From contig JAUXOM010000137.1 of assembly GCA_030682175.1 (NCBI GenBank), positions 1 through 59,690 of the forward strand: a DNA stretch of 59,690 bases. The letters are read 5' to 3'. Numbering within the stretch: the stretch's first letter is position 1; each line of letters starts with the position of its first letter. This stretch comes from Rhodocyclaceae bacterium (lineage in GTDB: Bacteria > Pseudomonadota > Gammaproteobacteria > Burkholderiales > Rhodocyclaceae). Of this stretch, positions 30,247 to 44,214 are shown one piece after another. The translations under genes and the position numbers were made by a program. The notes below the pieces were generated by a model, which made no database searches, was not told the DNA's origin, and saw only the letters and a program-made list of their open reading frames with translations.

Positions 30247-31685
30247 GGAAGCCCGTCATGCGACCGATAAAATCCGTCATTCCGGCGGAAGCCGGAATCC
30301 ACAGCCTTTGTGGTCAATTGAAATTCCCGGATTCCGGCCTGCGCCGTAATGACGAAGTTCCGCGATTGCGGAGCTTTGCCCGCATCTGGCTGATTCTCCT
30401 CGCCGTCACGCTGACCTTGTTTGCCGGCCTGGCCCGGGCCGGGGTGCAAATCCAGCACTGGGTCGCGCCGTCCGGGGCGAAGGTGTATTTCGTCGAAAGC
30501 CGCGGACTGCCGATTCTCGATGTACAGATCGACTTCGTCGCCGGCAGCGCGCGCGATCCCGCCGAGAAATCCGGCGTCGCCAGCCTGGCCGCCGGCCTGC
30601 TGGAGTCGGGCGCGGGCGAGGGCGCCGCGGCGCTGGATGAGGAACAAATCTCCGCCCGGCTGGTCGATCTGGGCGCGCGCCTGTCGTCCTCCGCCGATCA
30701 CGATCGCGCCAGCCTTGGCTTGCGCACCCTGTCCTTCGCCGCAGAGAAAGCCGGCGCGCTGGCGCTGCTGCACGCCGTCCTGTCAGCGCCGACTTTTCCC
30801 GAAAACGCCTTGGCGCGCGAAAAGACGCGCACGATCGAGGCGTTGAAAGAAGCTGCCACCCGCCCCGACAGCATCGCCGCCAGGCGCTTCGCCGCCGCCA
30901 TCTACCCGGATCATCCCTATGGTCGCGTGGCCACCCCGGAGAGCGTGGCGCGCATCACGCGCGATGATCTGGTGGCCTTTTACAAGACGCACTACGCGGC
31001 CCGCCACGCGGTGGTGTCGATCATCGGCGATGTCTCGAAAGACGAGGCGGCAGCCATCGCCCAGCAGCTCACAGCCACCCTGTCGGCGGGAGAGGCCAGC
31101 ATCGCGCTACCGGCCATCAAACAGCCGCAGCGCGATACCGTCAAGGTTGCCCACCCGGCCACCCAGTCGCATATCCATATCGGCCTGCCCGGGATGAGCC
31201 GCACCGATCCCGATTACTTCGCCCTGCTGGTCGGCAACTACACGCTCGGCGGCGGCGGCTTCGTCTCGCGACTGATGAAGGAGGTGCGCGAAAAGCGGGG
31301 ATATGCCTACAGCGTCTATTCCTACTTCGCACCGCGCGTGCAGGCCGGCCCGTTCCAGATCGGCCTGCAGACCAAGCGCGAGCAGGCGCAGGATGCCTTG
31401 CAGGTGGTCGATGAAGTGCTGACGACATTCCTCGCCGAAGGTCCGACCGCACAGGAACTCGCCGCCGCCAAGAAAAACCTCATCGACGGCCAGGCGCTGA
31501 GGATCGACAGCAACGCCAAGCTGCTCGGCTATCTGTCGCTGATCGGCTTTTATGGCCTGCCGCTCGATTACCTCGACCAGTTTCCGCGTCAGGTGGAAGC
31601 GGTGACGCGCGACGATGTGCGCATGGCCTTCCAGCGCCATGTAAAGCCCGAGTACCTCGTTACCGTGATCGTGGCGGCGGATTGA
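30243..31685 (+). CDS. M16 peptidase, non-catalytic partner
   Basis: A 480-residue frame; a TTG at 30366 would give a 439-residue form with a clean signal peptide (RSFARIWLILLAVTLTLF, then AGLARA). The upstream part is coded by an R4 repeat (VIPAEAGIHS...GLRRNDE). The HXXEH position is replaced by GVASLAAGLLESG, so zinc is not bound. The C-terminal glycine-rich GNYTLGGGGFVSRLMKEVREKRGYAYSVYSYF matches the substrate-binding partner. It follows the active M16 gene with overlap of the frames. Confidence 0.9.
   Translation: MRKPVMRPIKSVIPAEAGIHSLCGQLKFPDSGLRRNDEVPRLRSFARIWLILLAVTLTLFAGLARAGVQIQHWVAPSGAKVYFVESRGLPILDVQIDFVAGSARDPAEKSGVASLAAGLLESGAGEGAAALDEEQISARLVDLGARLSSSADHDRASLGLRTLSFAAEKAGALALLHAVLSAPTFPENALAREKTRTIEALKEAATRPDSIAARRFAAAIYPDHPYGRVATPESVARITRDDLVAFYKTHYAARHAVVSIIGDVSKDEAAAIAQQLTATLSAGEASIALPAIKQPQRDTVKVAHPATQSHIHIGLPGMSRTDPDYFALLVGNYTLGGGGFVSRLMKEVREKRGYAYSVYSYFAPRVQAGPFQIGLQTKREQAQDALQVVDEVLTTFLAEGPTAQELAAAKKNLIDGQALRIDSNAKLLGYLSLIGFYGLPLDYLDQFPRQVEAVTRDDVRMAFQRHVKPEYLVTVIVAAD
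30274..30354 (+). repeat. R4 hairpin element
   Basis: About 81 bp with inverted arms CGTCATTCCGGCGGAAGCCG and CGGATTCCGGCCTGCGCCGT plus AATGACG. One arm also occurs at 23365-23390. It is open in the peptidase frame and encodes an N-terminal extension. Confidence 0.7.
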
Positions 31686-31710
31686 AAAGCCATCACATCT
31701 GTCCAAAGAA

Positions 31711-31736
31711 AAACGGCGACCAACTGGTCGCCGTTT
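31711..31736. terminator. bidirectional terminator
   Basis: AAACGGCGACCA / TGGTCGCCGTTT with a 2-nt spacer. It lies between the end of the M16 pair and the PEP-CTERM gene and can serve both. Confidence 0.85.
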
Positions 31737-31759
31737 CGTTTGCTTCAGAACGCGCTCGA

Positions 31760-32266
31760 TCAGGTCATCTTGCGGCGGCGCATGACGCCGAGGCCGGCTA
31801 GGCCTAAGCCGAGCAGGGCGAGGGAGGCGGGCTCGGGTACACCATTGCTTTCGATATTGATGTACGCATATGCCTGCCCATAATCAGGGATCCAAATAGG
31901 CGTATCGGTGGATGAGTAGGTTTGGGATCCTGTGTCGATGGTAAAGCTCGTCAGATTTGACGCGTTGCTTCCCCAAATGTCATTAACGAACACCCACCAA
32001 TTCGAGCTTCCGGCCGTGTTGAATTGGGCCGTGATGTCATAGGATATGCCGCCGCTGGCATCAAAAGTATCGCTCACATAACCCTGTGCGACCTGTACCT
32101 GCCACTCGGGTGCAGATGTCAATCCACGCCCAAAAAAGACGTTGTAGTCGTTCCAATACGGGTTTCCTCCTCCCATCTGCATCGAGGCAATAATGGCGGC
32201 ATTTGCGCTTCCCGCCATCAACAGGGCCGCTGCGGCCAAAGCGCTGAACATTACGTTTTTTTTCAT
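31760..32266 (-). CDS. PEP-CTERM sorting-signal protein
   Basis: A 168-residue secreted protein. Signal peptide: MKKNVMFSALAAAALLMAGS followed by ANA. The body is Ser/Asn/Trp/Tyr-rich, which suggests an exopolysaccharide- or matrix-associated product. The C-terminal tripartite signal VPEPASLALLGLGLAGLGVM is followed by a basic RRRK tail. Exosortase would cleave and anchor it. It is expressed behind a sigma-54-type site with a leader of about 90 bases and ends at a strong terminator. Confidence 0.93.
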   Translation of the reverse strand: MKKNVMFSALAAAALLMAGSANAAIIASMQMGGGNPYWNDYNVFFGRGLTSAPEWQVQVAQGYVSDTFDASGGISYDITAQFNTAGSSNWWVFVNDIWGSNASNLTSFTIDTGSQTYSSTDTPIWIPDYGQAYAYINIESNGVPEPASLALLGLGLAGLGVMRRRKMT

Positions 32267-32366
32267 ATTGTCGGCTCCTTAAAAATGATTAAAAAGAAAC
32301 AAAAACGGGATCGGGTACGATGGAAGGCCTACAGGAATCCATACCCATTTTCATACAAGGGACAAG

Positions 32367-32383
32367 AAGCATCACCCATGCCA
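32367..32383 (-). promoter_or_regulatory. sigma-54-type promoter for the first PEP-CTERM gene
   Basis: TGGCATGGGTGATGCTT has the GG-N10-GC pair of a -24/-12 site. It lies 101 bp upstream of the start. The second PEP-CTERM gene has an equivalent site at 58414-58430. Confidence 0.75.
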
Positions 32384-32545
32384 GTCCACCATAAAGAATA
32401 AAATAATTCTTTAACAACAGTTTGTTAAATAACTTTTAACCCTGCTTACGATAGACACGCAAATTTTGATTTGTAAAATTATTCGACAGTTAATCCGTGC
32501 GGACCTGTTAGCAATTCGGACAGATATGCCTTTCCGTCTCTCACG

Positions 32546-33633
<1,088 letters not shown>

Positions 33634-33711: not shown

Positions 33712-35082
33712 TCAGCGTGTTCCGGGCAAGCTCAGGATGGCCCGCAGCCCGCCCAGAGGGGAGTCCGCCAGCTCCAATTGACCGCCATACATGCGCGCCA
33801 GGTCGTCGGTGATGGCCAGGCCCAGCCCGCTACCGGGTACCTGCTGGTCGGCGCGGACGCCACGTTGGAGCACTGTGTCGCGCTGGTCGAGGGCGATGCC
33901 CTTGCCATCATCGTCGATGCTGATCGTGAGCCGCTCCGGTTCGGCGCGGGCCTGAATCTCGACCCGGGAGTTGGCCCACTTGCAGGCGTTGTCGATCAGG
34001 TTGCCGAGCATTTCCTGCAAATCGTGCGTTTCGCCGCGAAATGTCAGCGCGGCAGGAAAGGGATGGACGACGAGGTCCAGATTTCGCTCGGCATGAATGC
34101 GGCGCATCGCGCGCACCAGGCCATCGGCAACCGGTTGCAGCAGCGTGCGCGCGCCGGGCAGATGTGCCGCGGCGGCGGCCTGGGCGCGCGCCAGATGGTA
34201 ATCCACCTGCTTGCGCGCCATCTCGATCTGGGAACTCACCAGTTGGGCCAGTTCGTCATTCCTGCCATCGGTGGCGTTGGCGAGAACGCTGAGCGGCGTT
34301 TTCAGCGCATGGGCGAGATTGCCGGCCTGGGTGCGCGCGCGGTCCACCACCTCGGCGTTTTGCGCCAGTACGCTGTTGAATTCCGTTACGAGCGGCATGA
34401 TCTCGGTCGGAAAGCCGCCTTCCATCTGCCTTGTTTCGCCGCTGCGCACCCGCCCGAGTGCCGTCTGCAGGCTGCGCAGCGGCGCCAGGCCGACAAATAC
34501 CTGCACCAGCGCCGCCAGTGCCAGACCGCTTCCCAGCACACCGAGGGACACCCATAGCTCGCGATTGAAATGTGCGACCGGCTCAAGCAACAGGCTTTCG
34601 TTGGCGGCGACGATCAGCCGCAGTGACTGGTCGTCGATGGTCACGCTGCGTTCCACCATGCCCAGCCTCGCGCCTTGCGGTCCCGCGACCCGATGCTGAT
34701 GGATTTCGCCGGTGGCGGGTTCGTCGCCGGGGACATGCAATACCTGATCCCACAGGGAACGTGAGCGCAACACGGCGACTTCCGCAGGAAAGTCGGCGCT
34801 GGCGAGACGGTCGATCTGCCAGTACAGGCCGGAGAACGGCTTCTGGAGACGGGGGTCGCTCAGAGGGAGCGCCAGCACTGGCCGAGCGGACTCTGCCAGC
34901 GCCAGTTGGGCGGTCAATTGGTCGAGGTGGGTATTCAGTTCCGCATGAAACTGCGTTTCCACATGCTGGCGAAACAGTTTGCCAAGCCCCCAGCCAGCCA
35001 CCAGAATCGAGATGGTGATCCAAAAGAGCGTCCCCACCAGAAGACGCACGCGCAGGGAGTTGCGTAGAAAGACAGAATTCAT
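33712..35082 (-). CDS. QseC/PmrB-type sensor histidine kinase
   Basis: A 456-residue inner-membrane kinase. Membrane segment 1 is near 15-35 (LLVGTLFWITISILVAGWGL) and segment 2 near 180-200. The H-box GNLAHALKTPLSVLAN has the phosphorylated histidine. ATPase motifs: LGNLIDNACKWANSRVEI (N-box), ISIDDDGKGI (G1), GSGLGLAI (G2). The periplasmic segment RLASADFPAEV matches an R1 repeat. It overlaps the response regulator by an ATGA junction. Confidence 0.94.
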   Translation of the reverse strand: MNSVFLRNSLRVRLLVGTLFWITISILVAGWGLGKLFRQHVETQFHAELNTHLDQLTAQLALAESARPVLALPLSDPRLQKPFSGLYWQIDRLASADFPAEVAVLRSRSLWDQVLHVPGDEPATGEIHQHRVAGPQGARLGMVERSVTIDDQSLRLIVAANESLLLEPVAHFNRELWVSLGVLGSGLALAALVQVFVGLAPLRSLQTALGRVRSGETRQMEGGFPTEIMPLVTEFNSVLAQNAEVVDRARTQAGNLAHALKTPLSVLANATDGRNDELAQLVSSQIEMARKQVDYHLARAQAAAAAHLPGARTLLQPVADGLVRAMRRIHAERNLDLVVHPFPAALTFRGETHDLQEMLGNLIDNACKWANSRVEIQARAEPERLTISIDDDGKGIALDQRDTVLQRGVRADQQVPGSGLGLAITDDLARMYGGQLELADSPLGGLRAILSLPGTR

Positions 35083-35741
35083 TGCGTTCTGTTGAGTCGA
35101 TAGCCAAGTCCGCGCACGGTTTCAATCAGGCCCGGTGGCAGCTTCTTGCGCAGGCGGGCGATAAACACTTCAACAGTATTCGAATCGCGGTCAAAGTCCT
35201 GAGCATAGATATGTTCGGTCAGTTCTCCGCGGGAGACAATTTCACCCTGATGGTGCATCAGGTAAGCCAGCACGCGATATTCATGGCTCGTCAGCGTCAA
35301 GGCAGCCCCATCAACGCTGGCACGGCTGCTGCGGGTGTCGAGCGTCAGCGCACCGCAAACCAGTTCGGTACTGGCATGCCCGCCGGCACGGCGGATCAAG
35401 GCGCGTAGCCTTGCCAGCAGTTCTTCCATGTGAAAGGGCTTGGTCAGGTAGTCGTCCGCACCGGCATCGATACCGGCCACCTTCTCGCGCCAGGTATCAC
35501 GTGCGGTCAGAATCAACACCGGCAATGTCTGACCTGATGCCCGCCATTTCTTGAGAACCGTAATGCCATCCATCTGGGGCAGGCCGATGTCCAGCACGAT
35601 TGCGTCGTAGGGTTCGGTTTCCCCCATGAAGTGACCATCGATGCCGTTGTGGGCAACATCGACGACATAACCAGCCGACTTGATGCCTTCAGCAAGTTGT
35701 GCCGCCAACGTGGGCTCGTCTTCGACAACCAGAATGCGCAT
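35079..35741 (-). CDS. OmpR-family response regulator
   Basis: A 220-residue regulator. The receiver domain (1-115) has DAIVLDIGLPQMDG with the phospho-acceptor aspartate, and KPFHMEELLARLRAL. The winged-helix domain (about 125-220) has SRASVDGAALTLTSHEYRVLAYLMHHQGEIVSRGELTEHIYAQDFDRDSNTVEVFIARLRKKL. The start overlaps the upstream PepSY gene (TGATG). In related clusters this pair controls adjacent cytochrome genes. Confidence 0.95.
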   Translation of the reverse strand: MRILVVEDEPTLAAQLAEGIKSAGYVVDVAHNGIDGHFMGETEPYDAIVLDIGLPQMDGITVLKKWRASGQTLPVLILTARDTWREKVAGIDAGADDYLTKPFHMEELLARLRALIRRAGGHASTELVCGALTLDTRSSRASVDGAALTLTSHEYRVLAYLMHHQGEIVSRGELTEHIYAQDFDRDSNTVEVFIARLRKKLPPGLIETVRGLGYRLNRTQ

Positions 35742-36100
35742 CAGCGGGTTTCTCCTGGACGAAGCCGTCTTTCATGCTTTTCCTTGAGACCGAGAATGGT
35801 GCCGTCCCGCGCATGAATCTTCAACTTCATCAAAGCCCCTCCCTTGCGCAATACCTTGACTTCATAAACCCATTCACCCTTTTCGCGGTCGAGTTCAACC
35901 TCCATGACCTGACCGGGATACTCGCGCTCGACGCGTTCAAGAATCGTGCGCAGCGGCAGCACCTCACCCGCCTCAACGGCTTGGCGGGCACGCTCATGGT
36001 CGCTGTAATCCCCGGCGTAACTATCCCCGGTACCTGGCATCACAAGCATGATCAGGCTGGCCAGTGCGACACACCATTGGGCAGTGATTCTCGACAACAT
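35741..36100 (-). CDS. PepSY-domain exported protein (regulatory operon)
   Basis: From MLSRITAQWCVALASLIMLV the protein is 119 residues with a signal peptide and one PepSY domain: RARQAVEAGEVLPLRTILERVEREYPGQVMEVELDREKGEWVYEVKVLRKGGALMKLKIHARDGTILG. Its likely place is the periplasm. It begins an operon with the two-component genes, so it may tune the kinase. Start chosen by the signal peptide; a longer frame to 36181 is possible but covers the promoter. Confidence 0.85.
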   Translation of the reverse strand: MLSRITAQWCVALASLIMLVMPGTGDSYAGDYSDHERARQAVEAGEVLPLRTILERVEREYPGQVMEVELDREKGEWVYEVKVLRKGGALMKLKIHARDGTILGLKEKHERRLRPGETR

Positions 36101-36168
36101 TTTCAACTCCGCAGGTTTTCCAGACTGATCTTTTAGCGTTTTGAATCTGAACGCAGGATGAACAAGCG

Positions 36169-36185
36169 ATTCAGCATCCATTCAG
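36169..36185 (+). promoter_or_regulatory. possible OmpR-type direct repeat in divergent promoter
   Basis: ATTCAG-N5-ATTCAG, an 11-bp period, between the divergent regulatory and cytochrome genes. It fits a tandem winged-helix site. Confidence 0.4.
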
Positions 36186-36237
36186 ATGGGCTGGCGCATA
36201 GTCCGCTTCAGAGTTCGATAAACGTCAGGATAAACGC

Positions 36238-36639
36238 ATGAAGAACATGTTGGTAGTTACCGCGGGGATTGTCGCCATGATACTCAGCACGGCCACACTC
36301 GCAGGCCCACGCGAAGACCTGCTGGCTCAGTATGCCGCAGCCGCCAAGTCAGCGGGATTTTCAGCGGTACGCGGCCAGGCCTTGCATATGCAGAACTTTT
36401 CTGCCGGCAAGCCCGACACGCCATCTTGTACCACCTGTCACGGCAAGGATACCCGGGGTGTCGGACGGACCCTTGCCGGCAAGACCGTCGAACCGGTTGC
36501 CGTATCCGCGGCGCCAACCCGTTATACCGATCCGGCCAAGGTCGAAAAGTGGTTCAAGCGCAACTGCACCGAGGTATTAGGGCGCGAATGTACCCCGCAG
36601 GAGAAAGGTGACTGGCTCACCTTTGTGATTGGTCAGTAA
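36238..36639 (+). CDS. SHP-type (DUF1924) monoheme cytochrome c
   Basis: A 133-residue exported cytochrome. Signal peptide about 1-22. A single CXXCH site, PSCTTCHGKDTRGVGRTLAG, sits near residues 61-80, and C-terminal WFKRNCTEVLGRECTPQEKGDWLTFVIGQ carries an extra cysteine pair, a mark of the family. SHP of Rhodobacter sphaeroides binds oxygen or nitric oxide at an open heme site and takes electrons from DHC. The order SHP-DHC, next to a two-component pair, supports the call. Confidence 0.88.
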   Translation: MKNMLVVTAGIVAMILSTATLAGPREDLLAQYAAAAKSAGFSAVRGQALHMQNFSAGKPDTPSCTTCHGKDTRGVGRTLAGKTVEPVAVSAAPTRYTDPAKVEKWFKRNCTEVLGRECTPQEKGDWLTFVIGQ

Positions 36640-36662
36640 TTTCAACCTGCCAGGAGACCTCC

Positions 36663-37154
36663 GTGCGCATTCCCTATCGTCCGTTTGCCATTGGACTTGT
36701 TGCGTTGGCCTTCTCCGCCATCGTTTTCGACCGCGCTCAGGCTGGTGACCGTCACTTCTTTGCGCCAGTAACCGATCCGGTTGTCAAGGAAGAATGTGGC
36801 AGTTGCCATCTGGCCTTTGCACCCGCGATGCTCCCGGCGCGATCCTGGCAACGCATGATGGGCGAACTGGACAAGCATTTCGGGGATAACGCCAGCATCG
36901 ATGCGGCCACCGCCGGGAAGATCACCCGCTATCTCGTCGCCAATGCAGGCGATGCGGGTGGTCAGCGCTACAGCAGAAAATTGCTGAAGGGCGTGGCTGC
37001 CGGGGCTGCTCCGCAACGCATTACGGAATTGCCCAAGTGGGTAAGCGAACATCGCAAAGTGCCCGACTGGGAGTGGAGGCACAAGGATGTTCGTACCAGG
37101 GCGAACTGTGTCGCCTGTCATACAGCAGCAGAACAAGGCGATTACGACGAATGA
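36663..37154 (+). CDS. diheme cytochrome c (DHC)
   Basis: A 163-residue periplasmic diheme protein from a GTG start with AGGAG upstream. Signal peptide ends near residue 27. Heme sites are CGSCH (about 45-49) and CVACH (about 149-153), at the two ends of the mature protein, as in known DHC. In characterised systems DHC donates electrons to SHP and receives them from a membrane cytochrome b. A 23-bp gap follows the SHP gene. Confidence 0.9.
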   Translation: MRIPYRPFAIGLVALAFSAIVFDRAQAGDRHFFAPVTDPVVKEECGSCHLAFAPAMLPARSWQRMMGELDKHFGDNASIDAATAGKITRYLVANAGDAGGQRYSRKLLKGVAAGAAPQRITELPKWVSEHRKVPDWEWRHKDVRTRANCVACHTAAEQGDYDE

Positions 37155-37191
37155 CCCATTCCCACACCAAACTTGGCAGGAGAATTTCACC

Positions 37192-37596
37192 ATGCGTCCA
37201 TTGATCATCGCTGCACTGCTTGCCACTGGCTTCTTCTCGATCTCAAGCCATGCCCAGGATGTCCGCCCTGCCAGTGCAGGCAATGCAAGATGGCTATCGA
37301 TTCCCGAAGTGCATGCCAGATTGGAGTCTGCAGGTTATCGCCATATCGAGAAGATCGAACGTGAACGCGGCAGCTATGAGGTCAAGGCAACCAACCGTAG
37401 CGGCCAGCGGATCAAACTGTATGTTCATCCCCAGACGGGCGAGGTTCTTGGTCAGCGGCAGCGAGATACCAAACGCGACAAATACGACAGCGGCTATGCA
37501 AGAAGCAATCAGCAAAATACGGCTGACTGCAATGAACGGCGGTGTCGTGATGACTCGCCCCAGCCGGGAATCGCTCAACCCGCCGCTGGAAAATGA
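37192..37596 (+). CDS. PepSY-domain exported protein (cytochrome operon)
   Basis: A 134-residue protein from MRPLIIAALLATGFF. Signal peptide to about 21 (SSHAQ). PepSY-like core: LSIPEVHARLESAGYRHIEKIERERGSYEVKATNRSGQRIKLYVHPQTGEVLG, followed by a charged tail with two cysteines (NTADCNERRCRDD). PepSY domains often flank flavocytochrome reductases and may regulate or scaffold them. It lies between DHC and the flavocytochrome gene. Confidence 0.85.
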   Translation: MRPLIIAALLATGFFSISSHAQDVRPASAGNARWLSIPEVHARLESAGYRHIEKIERERGSYEVKATNRSGQRIKLYVHPQTGEVLGQRQRDTKRDKYDSGYARSNQQNTADCNERRCRDDSPQPGIAQPAAGK

Positions 37597-37614
37597 TCCA
37601 TCAGGAGTCCTGAC

Positions 37615-38937
37615 ATGAAACTCTTGCTCGGTGCACTGCTCGTTATCGTCTCTGCCGCCTGGGCGCTGAATCTGCTTGTTACGGGCGGCGGCAGTGGCGG
37701 CAGTCTGCCATGGGTGATCCGACAGGAAGCGCTTTATATAAGCGGTCTTCTGTCCATTGCCCTGATGTCGCTGGCGATGTTCTTATCCACACGACCAGCC
37801 TGGCTTGAGCGGCCTCTTGGCGGCATGGATCGGATCTATCGCGCCCACAAATGGGCCGGCATTCTCGCCGTGGGCTTTGCGGTGCTGCATTGGCTGATCG
37901 AAGAGATTGTCGGTGACATTCTCAAGGCGATGATTGGTCGCGGGGGGCGCATACCGAAGGAGAAAGACAGCGGTTTTCTGGAAGTAATGCGCGACCTGGC
38001 CGAGGACATGGGGGAATGGGCGTTCTATGTGGTGCTGGTCATGCTGGCCATCACTCTATGGAAACGCTTTCCCTACAAGACCTGGCGAATTACGCATCAG
38101 GCCATGCCGGTGATCTATCTGATGCTGGCGTTTCATGCAATCTTCCTCGCACCAACTGATTATTGGACCAAGCCAGTAGGAATCCTCCTGGCGCTATTCC
38201 TGGCTGGCGGAGTCTATGGTTCCCTGCATTCTCTGGTCGGCCGTATTGGGCGCAAGCGCCAGGTGAATGGAGTGGTTACGGCCATCGAGAAGCCTAGTCG
38301 TGATGTGCTTACAGTCAGTTGCCAACTTGACAACAGCTGGCGTGGCCATCGCCCCGGCCAGTTCGCTTTCATTAGCTTTGACGAGAAGGAAGGCGCCCAT
38401 CCATTCACCATTGCCAGTGCGGACCGTGGTGATCGAACCATCACTCTCCAGATCAAGGCGTTGGGTGATTACACCCGCGTCCTCGGCAATCGTCTGGAAA
38501 TCGGTCGGTCGGTTAAGGTTGAAGGGCCGTATGGTCGCTTCGACATGGCGCGTCAGGACGCGCATGCCCAACAAATCTGGATTGCCGGCGGGATCGGGGT
38601 TACGCCGTTCCTCGCATGGCTGGATTCCCTGCAAGGAAAACCCAGACAGATTTCAGCGGAGCTCCACTACTGCACGCGTGATCGAACAAGCGACCCCTTT
38701 GTTGCCCGCCTCGAATCAAGTTGCGCCTCCTTGTCCGGAATCCGCCTTCATATCCATGGTGCTCAGCAGGGCGAAACTTTGAGCGCTACCAGTGTTGCCT
38801 CAACGCAGGATGGTTCGCGCCGGTCCGAAATCTGGTTCTGTGGGCCACCGGGATTGGCAGAAAAGCTCAAGCATGGGCTGCGGAGTTTGGGGCACAACAA
38901 ATTCAGCTTCCATCAGGAAGCGTTTGAGATGCGGTGA
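37615..38937 (+). CDS. ferric-reductase-like flavocytochrome b
   Basis: A 440-residue membrane reductase. Six predicted membrane segments to about residue 220. Paired heme histidines: H78-x13-H92 and H161-x12-H174, like NADPH oxidase and ferric reductase. The C-terminal ferredoxin-reductase domain binds FAD (GAHPFTIASADRGD) and NAD(P)H (WIAGGIGVTPFLAWL and WFCGPPGLAEK). It should move electrons from cytoplasmic NAD(P)H to the periplasmic side, where DHC may take them. Confidence 0.93.
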   Translation: MKLLLGALLVIVSAAWALNLLVTGGGSGGSLPWVIRQEALYISGLLSIALMSLAMFLSTRPAWLERPLGGMDRIYRAHKWAGILAVGFAVLHWLIEEIVGDILKAMIGRGGRIPKEKDSGFLEVMRDLAEDMGEWAFYVVLVMLAITLWKRFPYKTWRITHQAMPVIYLMLAFHAIFLAPTDYWTKPVGILLALFLAGGVYGSLHSLVGRIGRKRQVNGVVTAIEKPSRDVLTVSCQLDNSWRGHRPGQFAFISFDEKEGAHPFTIASADRGDRTITLQIKALGDYTRVLGNRLEIGRSVKVEGPYGRFDMARQDAHAQQIWIAGGIGVTPFLAWLDSLQGKPRQISAELHYCTRDRTSDPFVARLESSCASLSGIRLHIHGAQQGETLSATSVASTQDGSRRSEIWFCGPPGLAEKLKHGLRSLGHNKFSFHQEAFEMR

Positions 38938-38971
38938 CGCACTTGAGCAATCTGACCATAAGAATGACACC

Positions 38972-39295
38972 ATGAAATCCATCCCAATTATTTTGCTTGT
39001 GTTGTCCATTACAACAGCACACGCCGCCACTCCTGCAGCCCAGGTGGAATCCTGCGAACAGATCAGGGAGCAGATCCGGACGCATACTGGCGTTCCGGCC
39101 AAACCAAATACCATTTTGCTGAGTAAAGTTGGTGCAAACAAGAAATGTCGCTTTACCTCGGCCGAGGCTTTTCGCGCGGCTTGGGGCGATAAGCCGTTGC
39201 CTCGGGACGATGGTCGCGATGGGCGCTCAAAAGAGCGCGGAAACGATGATGATCGAAACCATATGCCAAACGTGTTTATGTTAAGGGTTTCTTAA
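38972..39295 (+). CDS. small exported protein of unknown function
   Basis: A 107-residue protein with a signal peptide (MKSIPIILLVLSITTAHA). It has two cysteines, in VESCEQIREQIRTHTG and NKKCRFTSAEAFRAAWG, and a basic-acidic tail (DDGRDGRSKERGNDDDRNHM). I do not recognise the family with confidence; it bears some resemblance to small DUF1161-type periplasmic proteins. A 34-bp gap follows the flavocytochrome gene, suggesting co-transcription. Confidence 0.7.
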   Translation: MKSIPIILLVLSITTAHAATPAAQVESCEQIREQIRTHTGVPAKPNTILLSKVGANKKCRFTSAEAFRAAWGDKPLPRDDGRDGRSKERGNDDDRNHMPNVFMLRVS

Positions 39296-39319
39296 GATGG
39301 ATATGAGAGGCCGGACGCA

Positions 39320-40624
39320 ATGCTGACGCCACCGGAAATGACCTCTGCCTCCCTGCTGCTCTGGATCGTATTGGGGATTACGCTGCAACTCGCGTTGTGG
39401 CTTGGCTTCGGCTTCTGGCGGCATTGGGGCGAGTATCGGGCCCTTCGTGCGGGCTTGCTTCCAAGCGAAGGCGGTGCCGGTCCTCAAGCGGAAGTATTTT
39501 CAGGCCTTACGGAGCCCGCATCGGCAACTGCCTGGAACGGATTCAGGAACTTCCGCGTCGATCACCGGGAAATTGAAGATGGGACCCGGTCGATCTGTTC
39601 CTTTTACCTGGTTCCAGAAGACAGGCAGCCGCTTCCTTCATTCAAACCTGGCCAGTTCCTGACCTTCCGCCTGGGTATTCCCAAGGCCGACGGCAGTGGC
39701 ACCGAGCAGGTCACCCGCTGCTACTCCCTGTCGGATGCTCCACAGTCCGGCCATTATCGTGTTTCGATCAAGCGGGCACCGTCCCCGCCGAAGAGCGATC
39801 ATCCACCGGGACGCTCCTCGAACTTCTTCCACGACCATGTTCAGGTCGGCACGACGCTGCAAGTTCGCGCACCCTCGGGGCACTTCACTCTCGAGCCGGG
39901 TAGCAGTCCCATCGTCCTGATCGCCGGCGGCATCGGCATCACGCCGATGCTCAGCATGCTCAACTGGTGCCAATCGCAGCAACCCGAGCGCGAGGTCTGG
40001 TTATTTTATGGGGTGCGCAACAGCAAGGAAACCGCTTTTGCAGCGCATCTGAACGCTATCGCCGCGGCCAACCCCAACGTCCATCTGCGCTTGTGCTTCA
40101 GCGACCCGCTGCCGGAAGATCGACTGGGCAAGGACTTCCATCACCGCGGACGCGTCGATGTGAATCTGTTCCGTATGGAGTTACCGCTCAAGCCCTTCCA
40201 CTACTACATCTGCGGGCCGACGCCGATGATGGAAACCCTGGTCCCGGCGCTGGATGACTGGGGCGTACCCGATGCGCACATTCACTTCGAAGCCTTCGGG
40301 CCGGCGTCCATCAAGCGCCGCAAACCAGTGGCCGCGGTGACCGAGAATGCCATTGCAGTCCCCGTGAGCGACATCACGGTAACCTTTGCCAAATCTGGCA
40401 AGCAGGCTCCATGGTCGCCGCAGTCGGGCAGCCTGCTCGAGTTTGCCGAATCCCAGGGGATTGCCATCGATTCAGGCTGCCGCGCCGGGGGCTGCGGCAC
40501 CTGCCAGACCACCATTCGTTCCGGCGAAGTGGCCTACCGGCAAGCGCCGGATTACGATCCCGAACCCGGCACCTGTCTGATGTGCGTCTGCACCCCTAAA
40601 ACCAACGTGACGCTGGAGGCCTGA
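39320..40624 (+). CDS. membrane-anchored flavin/[2Fe-2S] oxidoreductase
   Basis: A 434-residue protein. An N-terminal membrane segment (LLLWIVLGITLQLALWLGFG) is followed by an FNR-type domain: FAD motif RCYSLSDAP, NAD(P)-binding LIAGGIGITPMLSMLN and YYICGPTPMMETL. The C-terminal plant-type ferredoxin has the ligands C387, C392, C395 (CRAGGCGTC) and a fourth in the C-LMC-V-C cluster near 419-424. Similar to Hcr and phenol-hydroxylase reductases. It starts the three-gene unit with the cytochrome b and octaheme c genes. Confidence 0.92.
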   Translation: MLTPPEMTSASLLLWIVLGITLQLALWLGFGFWRHWGEYRALRAGLLPSEGGAGPQAEVFSGLTEPASATAWNGFRNFRVDHREIEDGTRSICSFYLVPEDRQPLPSFKPGQFLTFRLGIPKADGSGTEQVTRCYSLSDAPQSGHYRVSIKRAPSPPKSDHPPGRSSNFFHDHVQVGTTLQVRAPSGHFTLEPGSSPIVLIAGGIGITPMLSMLNWCQSQQPEREVWLFYGVRNSKETAFAAHLNAIAAANPNVHLRLCFSDPLPEDRLGKDFHHRGRVDVNLFRMELPLKPFHYYICGPTPMMETLVPALDDWGVPDAHIHFEAFGPASIKRRKPVAAVTENAIAVPVSDITVTFAKSGKQAPWSPQSGSLLEFAESQGIAIDSGCRAGGCGTCQTTIRSGEVAYRQAPDYDPEPGTCLMCVCTPKTNVTLEA

Positions 40625-40625
40625 A

Positions 40626-41216
40626 ATGACGACACCCGGCACCGCCTCACTCTGGCGTAACCACATCCTGCCGTTCACGCTGCTGGTTACTCTGCTCGGA
40701 GTGGCGACCGTTATCGGTGACTACCTGCTGCATCGCCTCGATCTGGTCTGGGTGGGACGCTATCTCGGCATCCCCGGCACCTTGCTGATCATCGGCTCGC
40801 TGACCTACTCCCTGCGCAAGCGCAAAGTCATCGCGACCGGGAACGTCAAATCCTGGCTCAACATGCACGAGATCGGCACCTGGCTGGGCTCATGGATGGT
40901 GCTGCTTCATGCGGGGATACATTTCAATGCCATCCTGCCCTGGCTGGCCACCATCGCCATGGGCGTCAATGTCATCAGCGGCATGGTTGGCAAAATGCTG
41001 CTGGCGCGTTCGCGCGAGCATGTGCAGGCCCAGCGTGAGCATTACCAACTGCGCGGCTTGTCCAAAGTAGAGGTCGAGCAGGCGCTGTTCTGGGAGTCGG
41101 TGACTTTCGATGCCATGGCCAAGTGGCGCAAGGTGCATATACCGATCTTCATCGCCTTTGCCGTGCTGGCGCTCGGGCACATCATCAGCATCTTCCTGTT
41201 CTGGGGGTGGCGATGA
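40626..41216 (+). CDS. four-histidine membrane cytochrome b
   Basis: A 196-residue membrane protein with about four segments. H81-x13-H95 and H171-x13-H185 sit in two helices, the spacing that binds two b hemes across a pair of helices. It starts 2 bp after the flavin reductase gene and overlaps the octaheme gene by ATGA, so tight coupling is certain. I infer it carries electrons from the flavin/[2Fe-2S] protein across the membrane to the octaheme cytochrome. No named family recognised. Confidence 0.85.
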   Translation: MTTPGTASLWRNHILPFTLLVTLLGVATVIGDYLLHRLDLVWVGRYLGIPGTLLIIGSLTYSLRKRKVIATGNVKSWLNMHEIGTWLGSWMVLLHAGIHFNAILPWLATIAMGVNVISGMVGKMLLARSREHVQAQREHYQLRGLSKVEVEQALFWESVTFDAMAKWRKVHIPIFIAFAVLALGHIISIFLFWGWR

Positions 41217-41962
41217 GCAAGACCCTCAAGATCGTTCTGGCGGCCAATCTCATCGTCATGGCCATACTGACCTTTGTCTATCCCCATTTGATGGTTGGCC
41301 CCGGAAAACTGATTCCCGGCCACAGCAAGTTGGAAACGGATTGTTTTGCCTGCCACGCACCGTTTTTTGGGACCACGACTGAAAGCTGCACAACCTGCCA
41401 CAAGTCGGAAGAGATCGGCAAGCTCACGACCCTTGGGCAGCCGATCCAGAAACCGCTTACCAGCACGCCATTCCACCAGAAGCTCCTGAAGCAGGATTGC
41501 CTCGCGTGCCATAGCGATCATGCGGGGGTAAAGCGCTTCCGTATCGAAGGCCGGTTCAACCACGCCTTGCTCCAGGCGGATGCCCGAAAGGAATGTCAGT
41601 CCTGCCACAAGTCACCCAAGGATTCTCTCCATCAGCAGATCACCGGGAACTGCAGCCAGTGCCATACCCAGGAGAAATGGGTGCCCGCGACCTTCGATCA
41701 CGACAAGTATTTTGTTCTGGATCGAGATCACAATGTGAAATGCGCAACCTGTCACCTGCGTAACGACTACAGCCGCTACACTTGCTATGGCTGCCATGAG
41801 CACACACCCGAGAAAATCCGGCGCAAGCACATCGAGGAAGGAATTCGCGACTTCAAGAACTGCGTGGAATGCCATCGCAGCGCCGATGAGCACGATATCC
41901 GGATGCCAGGACGTGGGCGCGAGCGCGAAAAAGGACACGGCAGGGAGCAAGATGAAGACTGA
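41213..41962 (+). CDS. octaheme periplasmic cytochrome c
   Basis: A 249-residue cytochrome with eight CXXCH sites: CFACH, CTTCH, CLACH, CQSCH, CSQCH, CATCH, CYGCH and CVECH. An uncleaved N-terminal hydrophobic segment (TLKIVLAANLIVMAILTFVY) should anchor it in the inner membrane with the hemes outside. Heme density (eight in about 200 residues) is typical of electron wires rather than enzymes. The tail is charged (RGREREKGHGREQDED). It overlaps the cytochrome b gene and ends the unit. Confidence 0.93.
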   Translation: MSKTLKIVLAANLIVMAILTFVYPHLMVGPGKLIPGHSKLETDCFACHAPFFGTTTESCTTCHKSEEIGKLTTLGQPIQKPLTSTPFHQKLLKQDCLACHSDHAGVKRFRIEGRFNHALLQADARKECQSCHKSPKDSLHQQITGNCSQCHTQEKWVPATFDHDKYFVLDRDHNVKCATCHLRNDYSRYTCYGCHEHTPEKIRRKHIEEGIRDFKNCVECHRSADEHDIRMPGRGREREKGHGREQDED

Positions 41963-42122: not shown

Positions 42123-42383
42123 ATGGCGGATTTGACAATACGCGGACTCCCCGATGAACTGCATCAACAGCTCAAGCAGTTGGCGGATGCGCATCACCGC
42201 TCGGTCAACCGCGAAACGATCGTACTCATCGAACGTGCCATGGCGGGCGACTTGAATGAGAAACCGCGCTTGTCCGCCACAGAAGTGATCGCGAAAGCGC
42301 AACACTTTGCCAGCCTGCCCGTACTCGACGGCCGCAGTGCCGACGAACTGATTGGCTACGATGTCGATGGCTTGCCGCGGTGA
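42123..42383 (+). CDS. FitA/VapB-type antitoxin
   Basis: An 86-residue antitoxin. The N-terminal ribbon-helix-helix is in LTIRGLPDELHQQLKQLADAHHRSVNRETIVLIERAM, close to the FitA subgroup. The C-terminal half (VIAKAQHFASLPVLDGRSADELIGYDVDGLPR) should fold on binding the toxin. Its TGA overlaps the toxin start. The pair lies at the right end of the accessory block, just before rsmD. Confidence 0.87.
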   Translation: MADLTIRGLPDELHQQLKQLADAHHRSVNRETIVLIERAMAGDLNEKPRLSATEVIAKAQHFASLPVLDGRSADELIGYDVDGLPR

Positions 42384-42781
42384 TGGGGTCACTCGTCGTC
42401 GATACTTCGGCTCTGCTCGCGGTTTTATTGCTGGAAGACGATGCGGCGCAGTACGCCGAGGCCCTCGGCTCAGCCGCAGCCTTACGCATGGCCGCCCCCA
42501 TCTGGCTTGAAACGGCGATGGTGGCGACCACCCGGAGTGGCGAGGCGGGCTACCGGGAACTGACGCGCTTTCTCGATGACCTGCGCATTGAAGTCATGCC
42601 GGTGGATCGCACGCTTGCGGAGGCCGCATTCGCCGGATGGGTGCGCTATGGCAAGGGCCGTCATCCTGCCGGCCTCAATTACGGCGACTGTTTTTCCTAT
42701 GCATTGGCAAAGCAGCGCAACGAGCCATTGCTATTCAAGGGTGGAGATTTTGCGCTGACGGACATTGCTTCGGCGGTATAG
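42383..42781 (+). CDS. VapC/FitB-type PIN toxin
   Basis: A PIN-domain ribonuclease of about 132 residues. The first acidic residue is in SLVVDTSALLAVLLLEDD, followed by IWLETAMV and NYGDCFSYALAKQRNEPLLFKGGDF, giving the expected acidic cluster for metal-dependent RNA cleavage. Start chosen at the ATG overlapping the antitoxin stop. Type II system with the preceding antitoxin. Confidence 0.88.
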   Translation: MGSLVVDTSALLAVLLLEDDAAQYAEALGSAAALRMAAPIWLETAMVATTRSGEAGYRELTRFLDDLRIEVMPVDRTLAEAAFAGWVRYGKGRHPAGLNYGDCFSYALAKQRNEPLLFKGGDFALTDIASAV

Positions 42782-42790
42782 CGCTGCACC

Positions 42791-44214
<1,424 letters not shown>

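Follow-up and report, generated by a model that had tools for sequence, protein, structure and literature searches.

Do the eight plus-strand genes at positions 36238-41962 of a contig from a Rhodocyclaceae bacterium form one electron-transfer system, and if they do, where do electrons enter it and on what are they spent? The question arises in a stretch of 59,690 nt, called the window here, from an assembly of 3.49 Mb in 153 contigs. In order, the eight genes encode the monoheme cytochrome c SHP, the diheme cytochrome c DHC, a PepSY_2 protein, a flavocytochrome b, a small protein (smallC), a FAD/[2Fe-2S] reductase, a four-His cytochrome b and an octaheme cytochrome c; the last three are referred to as the trio. 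A PepSY protein (Orf1), a response regulator (RR) and a sensor histidine kinase of the SK1 type are encoded divergently from this run. The flavocytochrome b is by its sequence a NOX, in the place where known SHP operons have a cytochrome b561, and the two halves of the island, SHP-DHC-NOX and the trio, recur together in other genomes and are preceded in some of them by the same DNA box. Our preferred reading, to which we give slightly less than an even chance, is an SK1-controlled system that would feed NAD(P)H electrons via NOX and the trio to DHC and SHP for periplasmic O2 or NO chemistry.

An initial annotation of the window had described the interval as an expanded SHP/DHC electron-transfer island. 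All genes that it named were recovered by Pfam domains (called on ten window proteins), CXXCH counts or the histidine pattern. Its list lacked smallC (38972-39295), the eighth gene of the interval, and of its two PepSY proteins, which both exist, Orf1 (35741-36181) lies just outside the interval and on the opposite strand. The count of at least 11 covalently bound c hemes agrees with the CXXCH motifs of the interval, one in SHP, two in DHC and eight in the octaheme protein. The intergenic gaps are, in order, 23, 38 (37 if PepSY_2 starts at 37192), 18, 34, 24, 1 and -4 bp. For comparison, a scan with the cytochrome b gave 235 relatives in named genomes, of which the best 80 form the trio loci discussed below (L-numbers denote loci, G-numbers genomes). 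Counts of SHP and NOX per locus refer to the fetched flank, and the loci are not independent of each other.

SHP, DHC and the sensor system

The window SHP (36238-36639, plus strand) matches DUF1924 with 118.7 bits (cut-off 22.5), contains a single CXXCH and aligns with the solved Rhodobacter sphaeroides SHP (1dw0) at E 6e-33. Its Asn ligand, Trp and Cys-Cys lie in KWFKRNCTEVLGREC, aligned to KWLGRNCNSVIGRDC of 1dw0, and this W-xxx-N-C...C ligand/disulfide motif is kept in 21 of the 22 trio-linked SHPs as well. DHC (36663-37154, plus strand) matches the Pfam family Dihaem cytochrome c with 135.4 bits (cut-off 22.2) and the structure 2fw5 at E 9e-32, and it begins 23 bp behind SHP, as in the SHP operons described in 2010. 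By their sequences, both are typical members of their families. DHC reduces SHP and SHP binds O2 in R. sphaeroides, and NO dioxygenase activity was reported for SHP (PMC2909971).

The SHP operons described by Meyer et al. (2010, PMC2909971) carry a quinol-type membrane diheme cytochrome b, and the SK1 sensors encoded in them bear the signature SGVYWQ / RSRSLWD. The window kinase (33712-35082, minus strand; HATPase_c) reads SGLYWQ and RSRSLWD and adjoins the PepSY protein (35741-36181, minus strand; PepSY 39.2 bits), a proposed sensor accessory that we infer from place and description to be the Orf1 of Meyer et al. The true start of Orf1 is probably near 36100, at MLSRITAQW, ahead of a signal peptide; its first ~23 residues sit in another frame in some relatives. 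Between the two lies the RR (35079-35741, minus strand), by reading of the OmpR type and 79-95% identical in SK1 loci. The window thus resembles the 2010 operon in holding SHP, DHC, SK1, RR and Orf1 together and in retaining the SHP ligand/disulfide motif. It differs in lacking the quinol-type cytochrome b and in carrying a NOX-like NAD(P)H flavocytochrome b, and it adds the PepSY_2 protein (37192-37596, plus strand; 50.7 bits), smallC and the trio. The smallC gene (38972-39295, plus strand) encodes a small, secreted-looking protein with two Cys that matched no Pfam or NCBIfam family; it recurs before NOX or before the trio.

A second, divergent SHP is encoded elsewhere in the window's genome (L213:6197-6619, contig C130; ~28% identical to the window SHP), and no DHC or other queried island gene was matched within 14 kb of it.

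A NOX-like flavocytochrome b in place of b561

The closest solved relative of the flavocytochrome b (37615-38937, plus strand) is SpNOX (8QT6; PMC11564096), with E 3.6e-23 for the sequence and E 9.6e-38 with a profile. The filters published for bacterial NOX, the FAD motif H[PSA]F[TS][LIMV] and two H-X12/14-H (PMC5676040), find their counterparts in HPFTI, HX13H at 78 and HX12H at 161, together with GIGVTP; the transmembrane part is recognised through the Pfam domain Ferric_reduct, next to FAD_binding_8. The NOX motifs are also present in all 13 other full-length trio-linked copies, a fourteenth (L063) being cut by the contig end. On this sequence evidence the protein is a NOX, related to the animal NADPH oxidases. 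A divergent NOX relative in L156 (~40% identity) is without the FAD motif.

None of the ten window proteins scanned matched cytochrome b561 (PF01292), and the b561 proteins of two relatives found no match in the whole window (tblastn, E 1e-3). The same replacement is seen in other genomes: SK1 and NOX without b561 are found in 12 of the 22 trio-linked SHP loci, b561 without NOX in eight, b561 and NOX together in one, and neither of them in one. NOX without b561 is therefore found in 12/12 trio-linked SK1 loci, and equally in six more SK1 loci that have no trio in the fetched stretch (L160, L161, L196-L199). Two entry points for reducing equivalents had been postulated for the island. Genes suited to both are present, and the first can now be described more precisely: since it is a NOX and not the quinol-linked cytochrome b, both entry points are probably fed by NAD(P)H.

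Which acceptor does this NOX serve? SpNOX reduces cytochrome c directly and faster than O2, with initial rates that are similar in the presence and absence of O2 (PMC11564096). Compared with the bacterial NOX proteins (Hajjar et al. 2017, PMC5676040), the window NOX is alike in its FAD, NADPH and double-His motifs and differs in its operon, which offers c-type cytochromes as possible natural acceptors, and in the residue at the position of human NOX2 His-119. This His was proposed as a mark of O2-reducing NOX (PMC3591440), and with Thr-178 and Gly-179 it belongs to a triplet that marks NOX making superoxide. Of the triplet, the His position alone was judged (+4 after the second helix-3 His, by offset); it holds Glu-96 in the window NOX, a mild argument against an enzyme that makes only superoxide. 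The idea that NOX produces periplasmic superoxide as a signal or weapon, the cytochromes being merely protective, can draw on the superoxide made by SpNOX in vitro (PMC5676040). With Glu-96 in place of His-119 and with the gene embedded among c-type acceptors, we regard it as highly improbable. As far as its sequence and setting can tell, the window NOX probably spans the membrane and uses NAD(P)H to reduce an acceptor in the periplasm.

The reductase-cytochrome b-octaheme trio

The reductase (39320-40624, plus strand; NAD_binding_1, FAD_binding_6, Fer2) has the reductase module of flavohemoglobin as its closest solved relative (3ozu, E 1e-52) and scores 244.7 bits against the model for NO-inducible flavohemoprotein, under the cut-off of 432 bits. 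To this module it adds a [2Fe-2S] domain and an N-terminal hydrophobic anchor, the latter read from the sequence.

The cytochrome b (40626-41216, plus strand) matched no Pfam family. Its two HX13H pairs, H81/H95 and H171/H185, are conserved in 80/80 relatives, and these four paired His are the sole invariant His among 50 sequences with identities down to 21-27%. This is the spacing to be expected where two b hemes are stacked as in the ferric-reductase domain (FRD). An AF2 model reached a pLDDT of 83.9 from 50 sequences (56 from 12 sequences); the Foldseek search with the better model gave a best E of 1.5, with SpNOX at E 5.2, none of them significant, so that it is the His spacing that carries the FRD assignment. 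A profile of the cytochrome b found nothing better than E 1.2 among solved structures, and a search of plasmids gave no match to it.

The octaheme protein (41213-41962, plus strand) has an N-terminal hydrophobic anchor, eight CXXCH and cytochrome c3/c7 domains. Eight CXXCH are present in 78/80 relatives, the others being one protein with 10 (L074) and one cut by a contig end. A profile of 12 sequences had no match at E 0.01 or better among PDB sequences, solved octaheme enzymes included. Nine further His are invariant in these 12 sequences, sufficient for eight distal ligands; since they allow bis-His ligation of all eight hemes, the protein is likelier to be a wire than an enzyme.

Distant kin of the cytochrome b directly precede ORFs with 24 and 27 CXXCH (L132, L133, L134), with CXXCH-rich ORFs behind. 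Such pairs of a cytochrome b and a giant multiheme protein appear to form a larger family, whose cytochrome b is without a Pfam name.

Two known systems resemble the trio. With MsrPQ and its reductase Fre it shares a cytoplasmic flavin reductase, membrane b hemes and a periplasmic partner (PMC11031084); it differs in having an octaheme c in the periplasmic place, no molybdenum-enzyme family having been found among the ten scanned proteins, in the [2Fe-2S] domain of the reductase, and in a cytochrome b that retains all four His. With flavohemoglobin Hmp, an NO dioxygenase, it shares the reductase module, and NO dioxygenase activity has been reported for SHP as well (PMC2909971). In contrast to Hmp, the reductase and the O2-binding heme are split into two proteins, predicted on opposite sides of the membrane. 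We found no name for the trio, which, with its family-less cytochrome b, appears to be a widespread electron-transfer block.

The direction of flow through this block could also be the reverse, with periplasmic or extracellular donors passing electrons via the octaheme c and the cytochrome b to NAD(P)+ in iron- or sulfur-oxidising hosts. Several hosts are indeed named Thiobacillus, Gallionella, Sideroxydans, Sideroxyarcus or Sulfuritalea, SHP-type genes of Allochromatium vinosum rise on pyrite (PMC11267869), and the 24- and 27-CXXCH ORFs mentioned above would fit such uptake. However, the families to which NOX and the flavohemoglobin-type reductases belong oxidise NAD(P)H, the hosts are a mixed group with records of Accumulibacter, Aromatoleum and Zoogloea among them, and no porin or outer-membrane conduit family was found among the ten scanned proteins. 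We therefore consider inward flow improbable and continue with electrons that would leave NAD(P)H for the periplasm.

Conserved linkage of the two halves

The trio is present in 80/80 loci and tightly packed in 79 of them. SHP lies within the fetched flank of 22/80, and of 14/37 when the count is confined to loci with 7.5 kb or more on each side; NOX is found in 14/80, 13 of these with SHP. The full eight-gene order together with SK1-RR-Orf1 recurs in eight of the 80 loci (L061, L062, L064-L069), and the whole island is thus present in Dechloromonas agitata is5 (L066). In other arrangements the trio stands before, after or facing SHP-DHC-b561-RR-SK2, or smallC-NOX-SHP-DHC-b561 follows behind the trio. 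The records in which close relatives of the island occur bear the names Rhodocyclaceae, Thiobacillus, Sulfuritalea, Accumulibacter and others. A lack of conserved linkage between the halves had been named beforehand as an outcome that would speak against a single island; these counts show the linkage to be conserved.

By a crude estimate, which assumes 1.3 SHP genes per 3.2 Mb and 20 kb inspected, SHP would be near ~0.65 of 80 trios by chance, as against the 22 found. Mapped on a tree built from 81 trio proteins, the presence of SHP requires at least nine changes, three of them forced by well-supported branches. With shuffled labels the number is 15.7; SHP is thus the more clustered, as relatedness among the loci would lead one to expect. 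Co-occurrence across whole genomes points the same way, in statistics that ignore shared ancestry: SHP is present in 9/10 genomes with a strong trio match (E 1e-97 or better) versus 20/51 others among relatives (p 0.004), and in 5/6 versus 43/270 across the class (p 0.0007). Apart from the window's own genome, four class genomes contain trio and SHP together, in each case with the matches on separate contigs.

A shared upstream box

Between Orf1 and SHP lies a direct repeat, TTCAG-N6-TTCAG, which faces SHP (36170-36185, plus strand) and is followed by a -10-like CATAGT at 36197-36202. The repeat is strict in the window and in 14/14 related SK1 loci first compared, in all of which it precedes a CA(T/A/C)AGT element; five SK1 loci compared later have one strict box and four with TTCAC as the first half. 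A mirrored TTCA-type pair faces Orf1 in 13/15 SK1 loci, in the window as TTCAT-N6-TTCAG (36147-36162, minus strand). The strict repeat occurs once in the window, and a model of the box trained without the window, built after the repeat had been noticed there, scores this site at 49.5 bits and the next best at 8.5. A scan for promoters and terminators gave counts no better than shuffles.

Applied to the 80 trio loci, the full model found four strong sites outside its training set (28.7-35.6 bits; L076, L113 and two in L111), located 89-95 bp before smallC of trio operons without a nearby SHP, while the reversed-sequence control peaks at 13.3 bits. Weaker matches are those of L077 (15.7 bits, 183 bp before the reductase) and L101 (12.0 bits, 87 bp before smallC), the latter under the best control match. 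As 14 non-training matches exceed 8 bits versus eight in the control, only the strong ones are meaningful.

SK1 was found elsewhere in the genomes of L076, L077, L101, L111, L113 and L082, and none was found in that of L053. In the three Thiobacillus genomes among them (L076, L111, L113), SK1 shows 73-75% identity, and SK1-RR-Orf1 faces SHP-DHC-PepSY2-NOX on another contig, with no trio within the 14 kb fetched; this SHP-NOX operon carries the box, too (28.3-31.1 bits, first half TTCAC). The genome of L101 has a like SHP-NOX operon with a weaker box (16.4 bits), and that of L077 has SHP-DHC-b561 with a box of 31.2 bits. A second, weaker box-like site before PepSY2-NOX (L196:8407 and L197:8389; 13.2 and 16.3 bits, best control 13.3) is perhaps an internal promoter of the Thiobacillus SHP operon.

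Box and SK1 tend to occur together. When L101 and the three near kin are counted, Fisher's test gives p 0.0016 (5/5 vs 12/51), and p 0.0065 without L101; with L093, L107 and L110 added as box-negative SK1 loci the values are 0.003 and, for the four loci above the control, 0.011. The underlying search for SK1 concerned the 68 trio loci without a local SK1 and covered 50 genomes plus those of L076, L077, L082, L101, L111 and L113; L106, which has a local SK1, was searched as well. Left out were L063, L092, L090, L093, L107, L110, L052, L054, L104, L125, L128 and L131, of which L092, L090, L093, L107 and L110 share assemblies (L063: the type) with searched or SK1-bearing loci. In the 50 genomes at most 33 candidates each were scored, fewer than were found in most, which makes "no SK1" less than certain, and six of the 68 loci have less than 250 bp upstream of the first trio gene. 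We take TTCAG-N6-TTCAG as the putative site of the SK1-partnered RR. Independent regulation of the two halves, likewise named in advance as an argument against one island, would fit poorly with the operon-like gaps and with the box shared by three unlinked Thiobacillus trios. It would agree better with the SHP-less trio operons, most of which show no box.

Exchange of the halves and insertion of the island

In its SHP-DHC-NOX proteins, the window groups with L061, L062, L064-L068 and L106 in a single clade (100/100). In the trio trees, by contrast, the window and L061 are separate from L062-L068 and from L106, and an AU test on a quick tree, with the group chosen after the tree had been seen, gave p 6e-7 against holding the trios of the window, L061 and L062-L068 together. 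As the SHP-NOX half is one clade and the trios split, at least three trio lineages stand beside one SHP-NOX type. Judged by these trees, the island consists of two modules that can exist apart and have undergone exchange in the course of evolution.

The island is flanked by two copies of rsmD with the start of coaD, at 32542-33177 and 42787-43541, which are 72-78% identical in rsmD and 92% in the coaD start. The first copy (plus strand), with the first ~100 bp of coaD, marks the left end. Because three relatives hold a single rsmD-coaD at the same place, the segment has the appearance of an insertion. Among these relatives, G009 is the most similar to the right copy (93.8%) and G008 to the left one (85%).

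Could the halves then be two unrelated redox modules that share an island merely through horizontal transfer? The trio stands alone in most loci, the trees of the halves differ, the insertion is absent from three relatives, and most SHP-less trios are without the box. Against mere co-transfer speak the excess of trios with SHP over the crude chance estimate, the several SHP-trio arrangements with their repeated, partly forced label changes on the tree, and the box common to the unlinked operons of three Thiobacillus genomes. We judge this explanation to be rather improbable and retain a single expanded SHP/DHC electron-transfer island, which the conserved linkage and, in some genomes, the shared box support.

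Proposed function

In the proposed scheme, SK1 and the PepSY accessory Orf1 would sense an envelope signal, and the RR would bind TTCAG-N6-TTCAG and switch the operon on. NOX would move cytoplasmic NAD(P)H electrons across the membrane via FAD and two b hemes and, on the periplasmic side, pass them to DHC rather than, or besides, to O2. The three trio proteins would form a second line, split and parallel to the first, by which NAD(P)H electrons reach the periplasm, presumably ending in a contact between octaheme c and DHC. DHC would reduce SHP, whose reduced heme may bind O2 and oxidise or detoxify a small molecule, with NO as the best candidate. A more specific version, possible in our view though open to considerable doubt, likens the system to a flavohemoglobin taken apart across the membrane, in which DHC is the acceptor of NOX, the trio helps and SHP acts as a periplasmic NO dioxygenase or oxygenase.

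If true, this would provide the first physiological partner of a bacterial NOX; in the SpNOX work the physiological role of these enzymes is given as unknown and a protein acceptor as possible (PMC5676040, PMC11564096, PMC11031084). NOX, cytochrome c and SHP would be joined as one system by their conserved operon and, in some of the genomes, by a common control site. In the open-licence literature we found no report that joins NOX with SHP or describes the trio or this gene set, in line with the initial annotation, which knew of no such system; the available parts of a Gallionellaceae pangenome paper hold nothing on this cluster.

The chief rival is a metal cue or metal chemistry, suggested by a CDF efflux gene behind the trio and by a joint response to pyrite in A. 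vinosum. NOX and the trio would then reduce or re-speciate periplasmic metals (Fe, Mn, Cu or others) together with cation efflux, and SHP and DHC would be accessory. In 20 of the 62 loci with at least 2.5 kb behind the octaheme gene, a CDF gene starts on the same strand within 350 bp (for example L028; TIGR01297, 240 bits, cut-off 82). L108 has Metal_resist and zinc-finger (anti-sigma-like) genes beside an ECF sigma gene, with relatives of both in five loci. On pyrite, A. vinosum upregulates a DUF1924 gene, taken as SHP here, a diheme cytochrome c, a cytochrome B561 and a two-component pair, along with the FieF and CzcA-type efflux genes numbered close to them (PMC11267869). An 8-heme cytochrome is said in the same paper to rise on pyrite, and Alvin_0016-0018 appear there under other names. 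The window itself, however, gave no tblastn match to CDF, SpNOX is a poor ferric reductase (PMC11564096), and a metal function leaves unexplained why SHP keeps its ligand motif in 21/22 linked loci. We consider the metal explanation unlikely, yet worth taking seriously.

Several observations weigh against the SK1-controlled NOX-trio-SHP system proposed here. SHP is missing from the fetched flank of 58/80 trio loci. Where 7.5 kb or more is available on each side the figure is 23/37, and 13 of these 37 loci lack CDF as well as SHP, so that the trio must have other lives. G003 has the trio beside a DHC and a two-component system (L031:7060-7419) and no SHP match in the whole genome; DHC may thus serve the trio without SHP. 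One SK1 locus without a trio (L200) has b561 and no NOX, and SK1 therefore does not require NOX. The model of the cytochrome b matches no solved fold. As to regulation, in 11 of the 50 trio genomes searched SK1 is present and no box match precedes the trio (one of them, L127, with only 97 bp upstream), and the trios L093, L107 and L110 share assemblies with SK1 loci and lack the box. Unlinked trios that bear the box are few (four loci including L077, plus L101), and three of them are close kin. Given the SK1 genomes without a trio box, the shared box is a fact for some lineages and not a rule for the trio.

Neighbouring genes

On the left side of the insertion, the gene of an ECF sigma factor (33058-33633, or 33178-33633 up to the junction, minus strand) appears to have its C-terminal end cut by the junction at 33177: Sigma70_r2 is covered at positions 1-70 of 71, and region 4 only at 3-28 of 54, under the cut-off. 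A similar sigma gene lies upstream of SK1 in L062, L066 and L067. Between the octaheme gene and the second rsmD, a FitA-like antitoxin and PIN-domain pair (42123-42781) occupies the spot where several related islands have the CDF efflux gene. The stretch 31685-32552 has no match at the empty site of the three relatives; it contains a gene (31760-32266) with a PEP-CTERM-like end, by reading, and may have come with the insertion.

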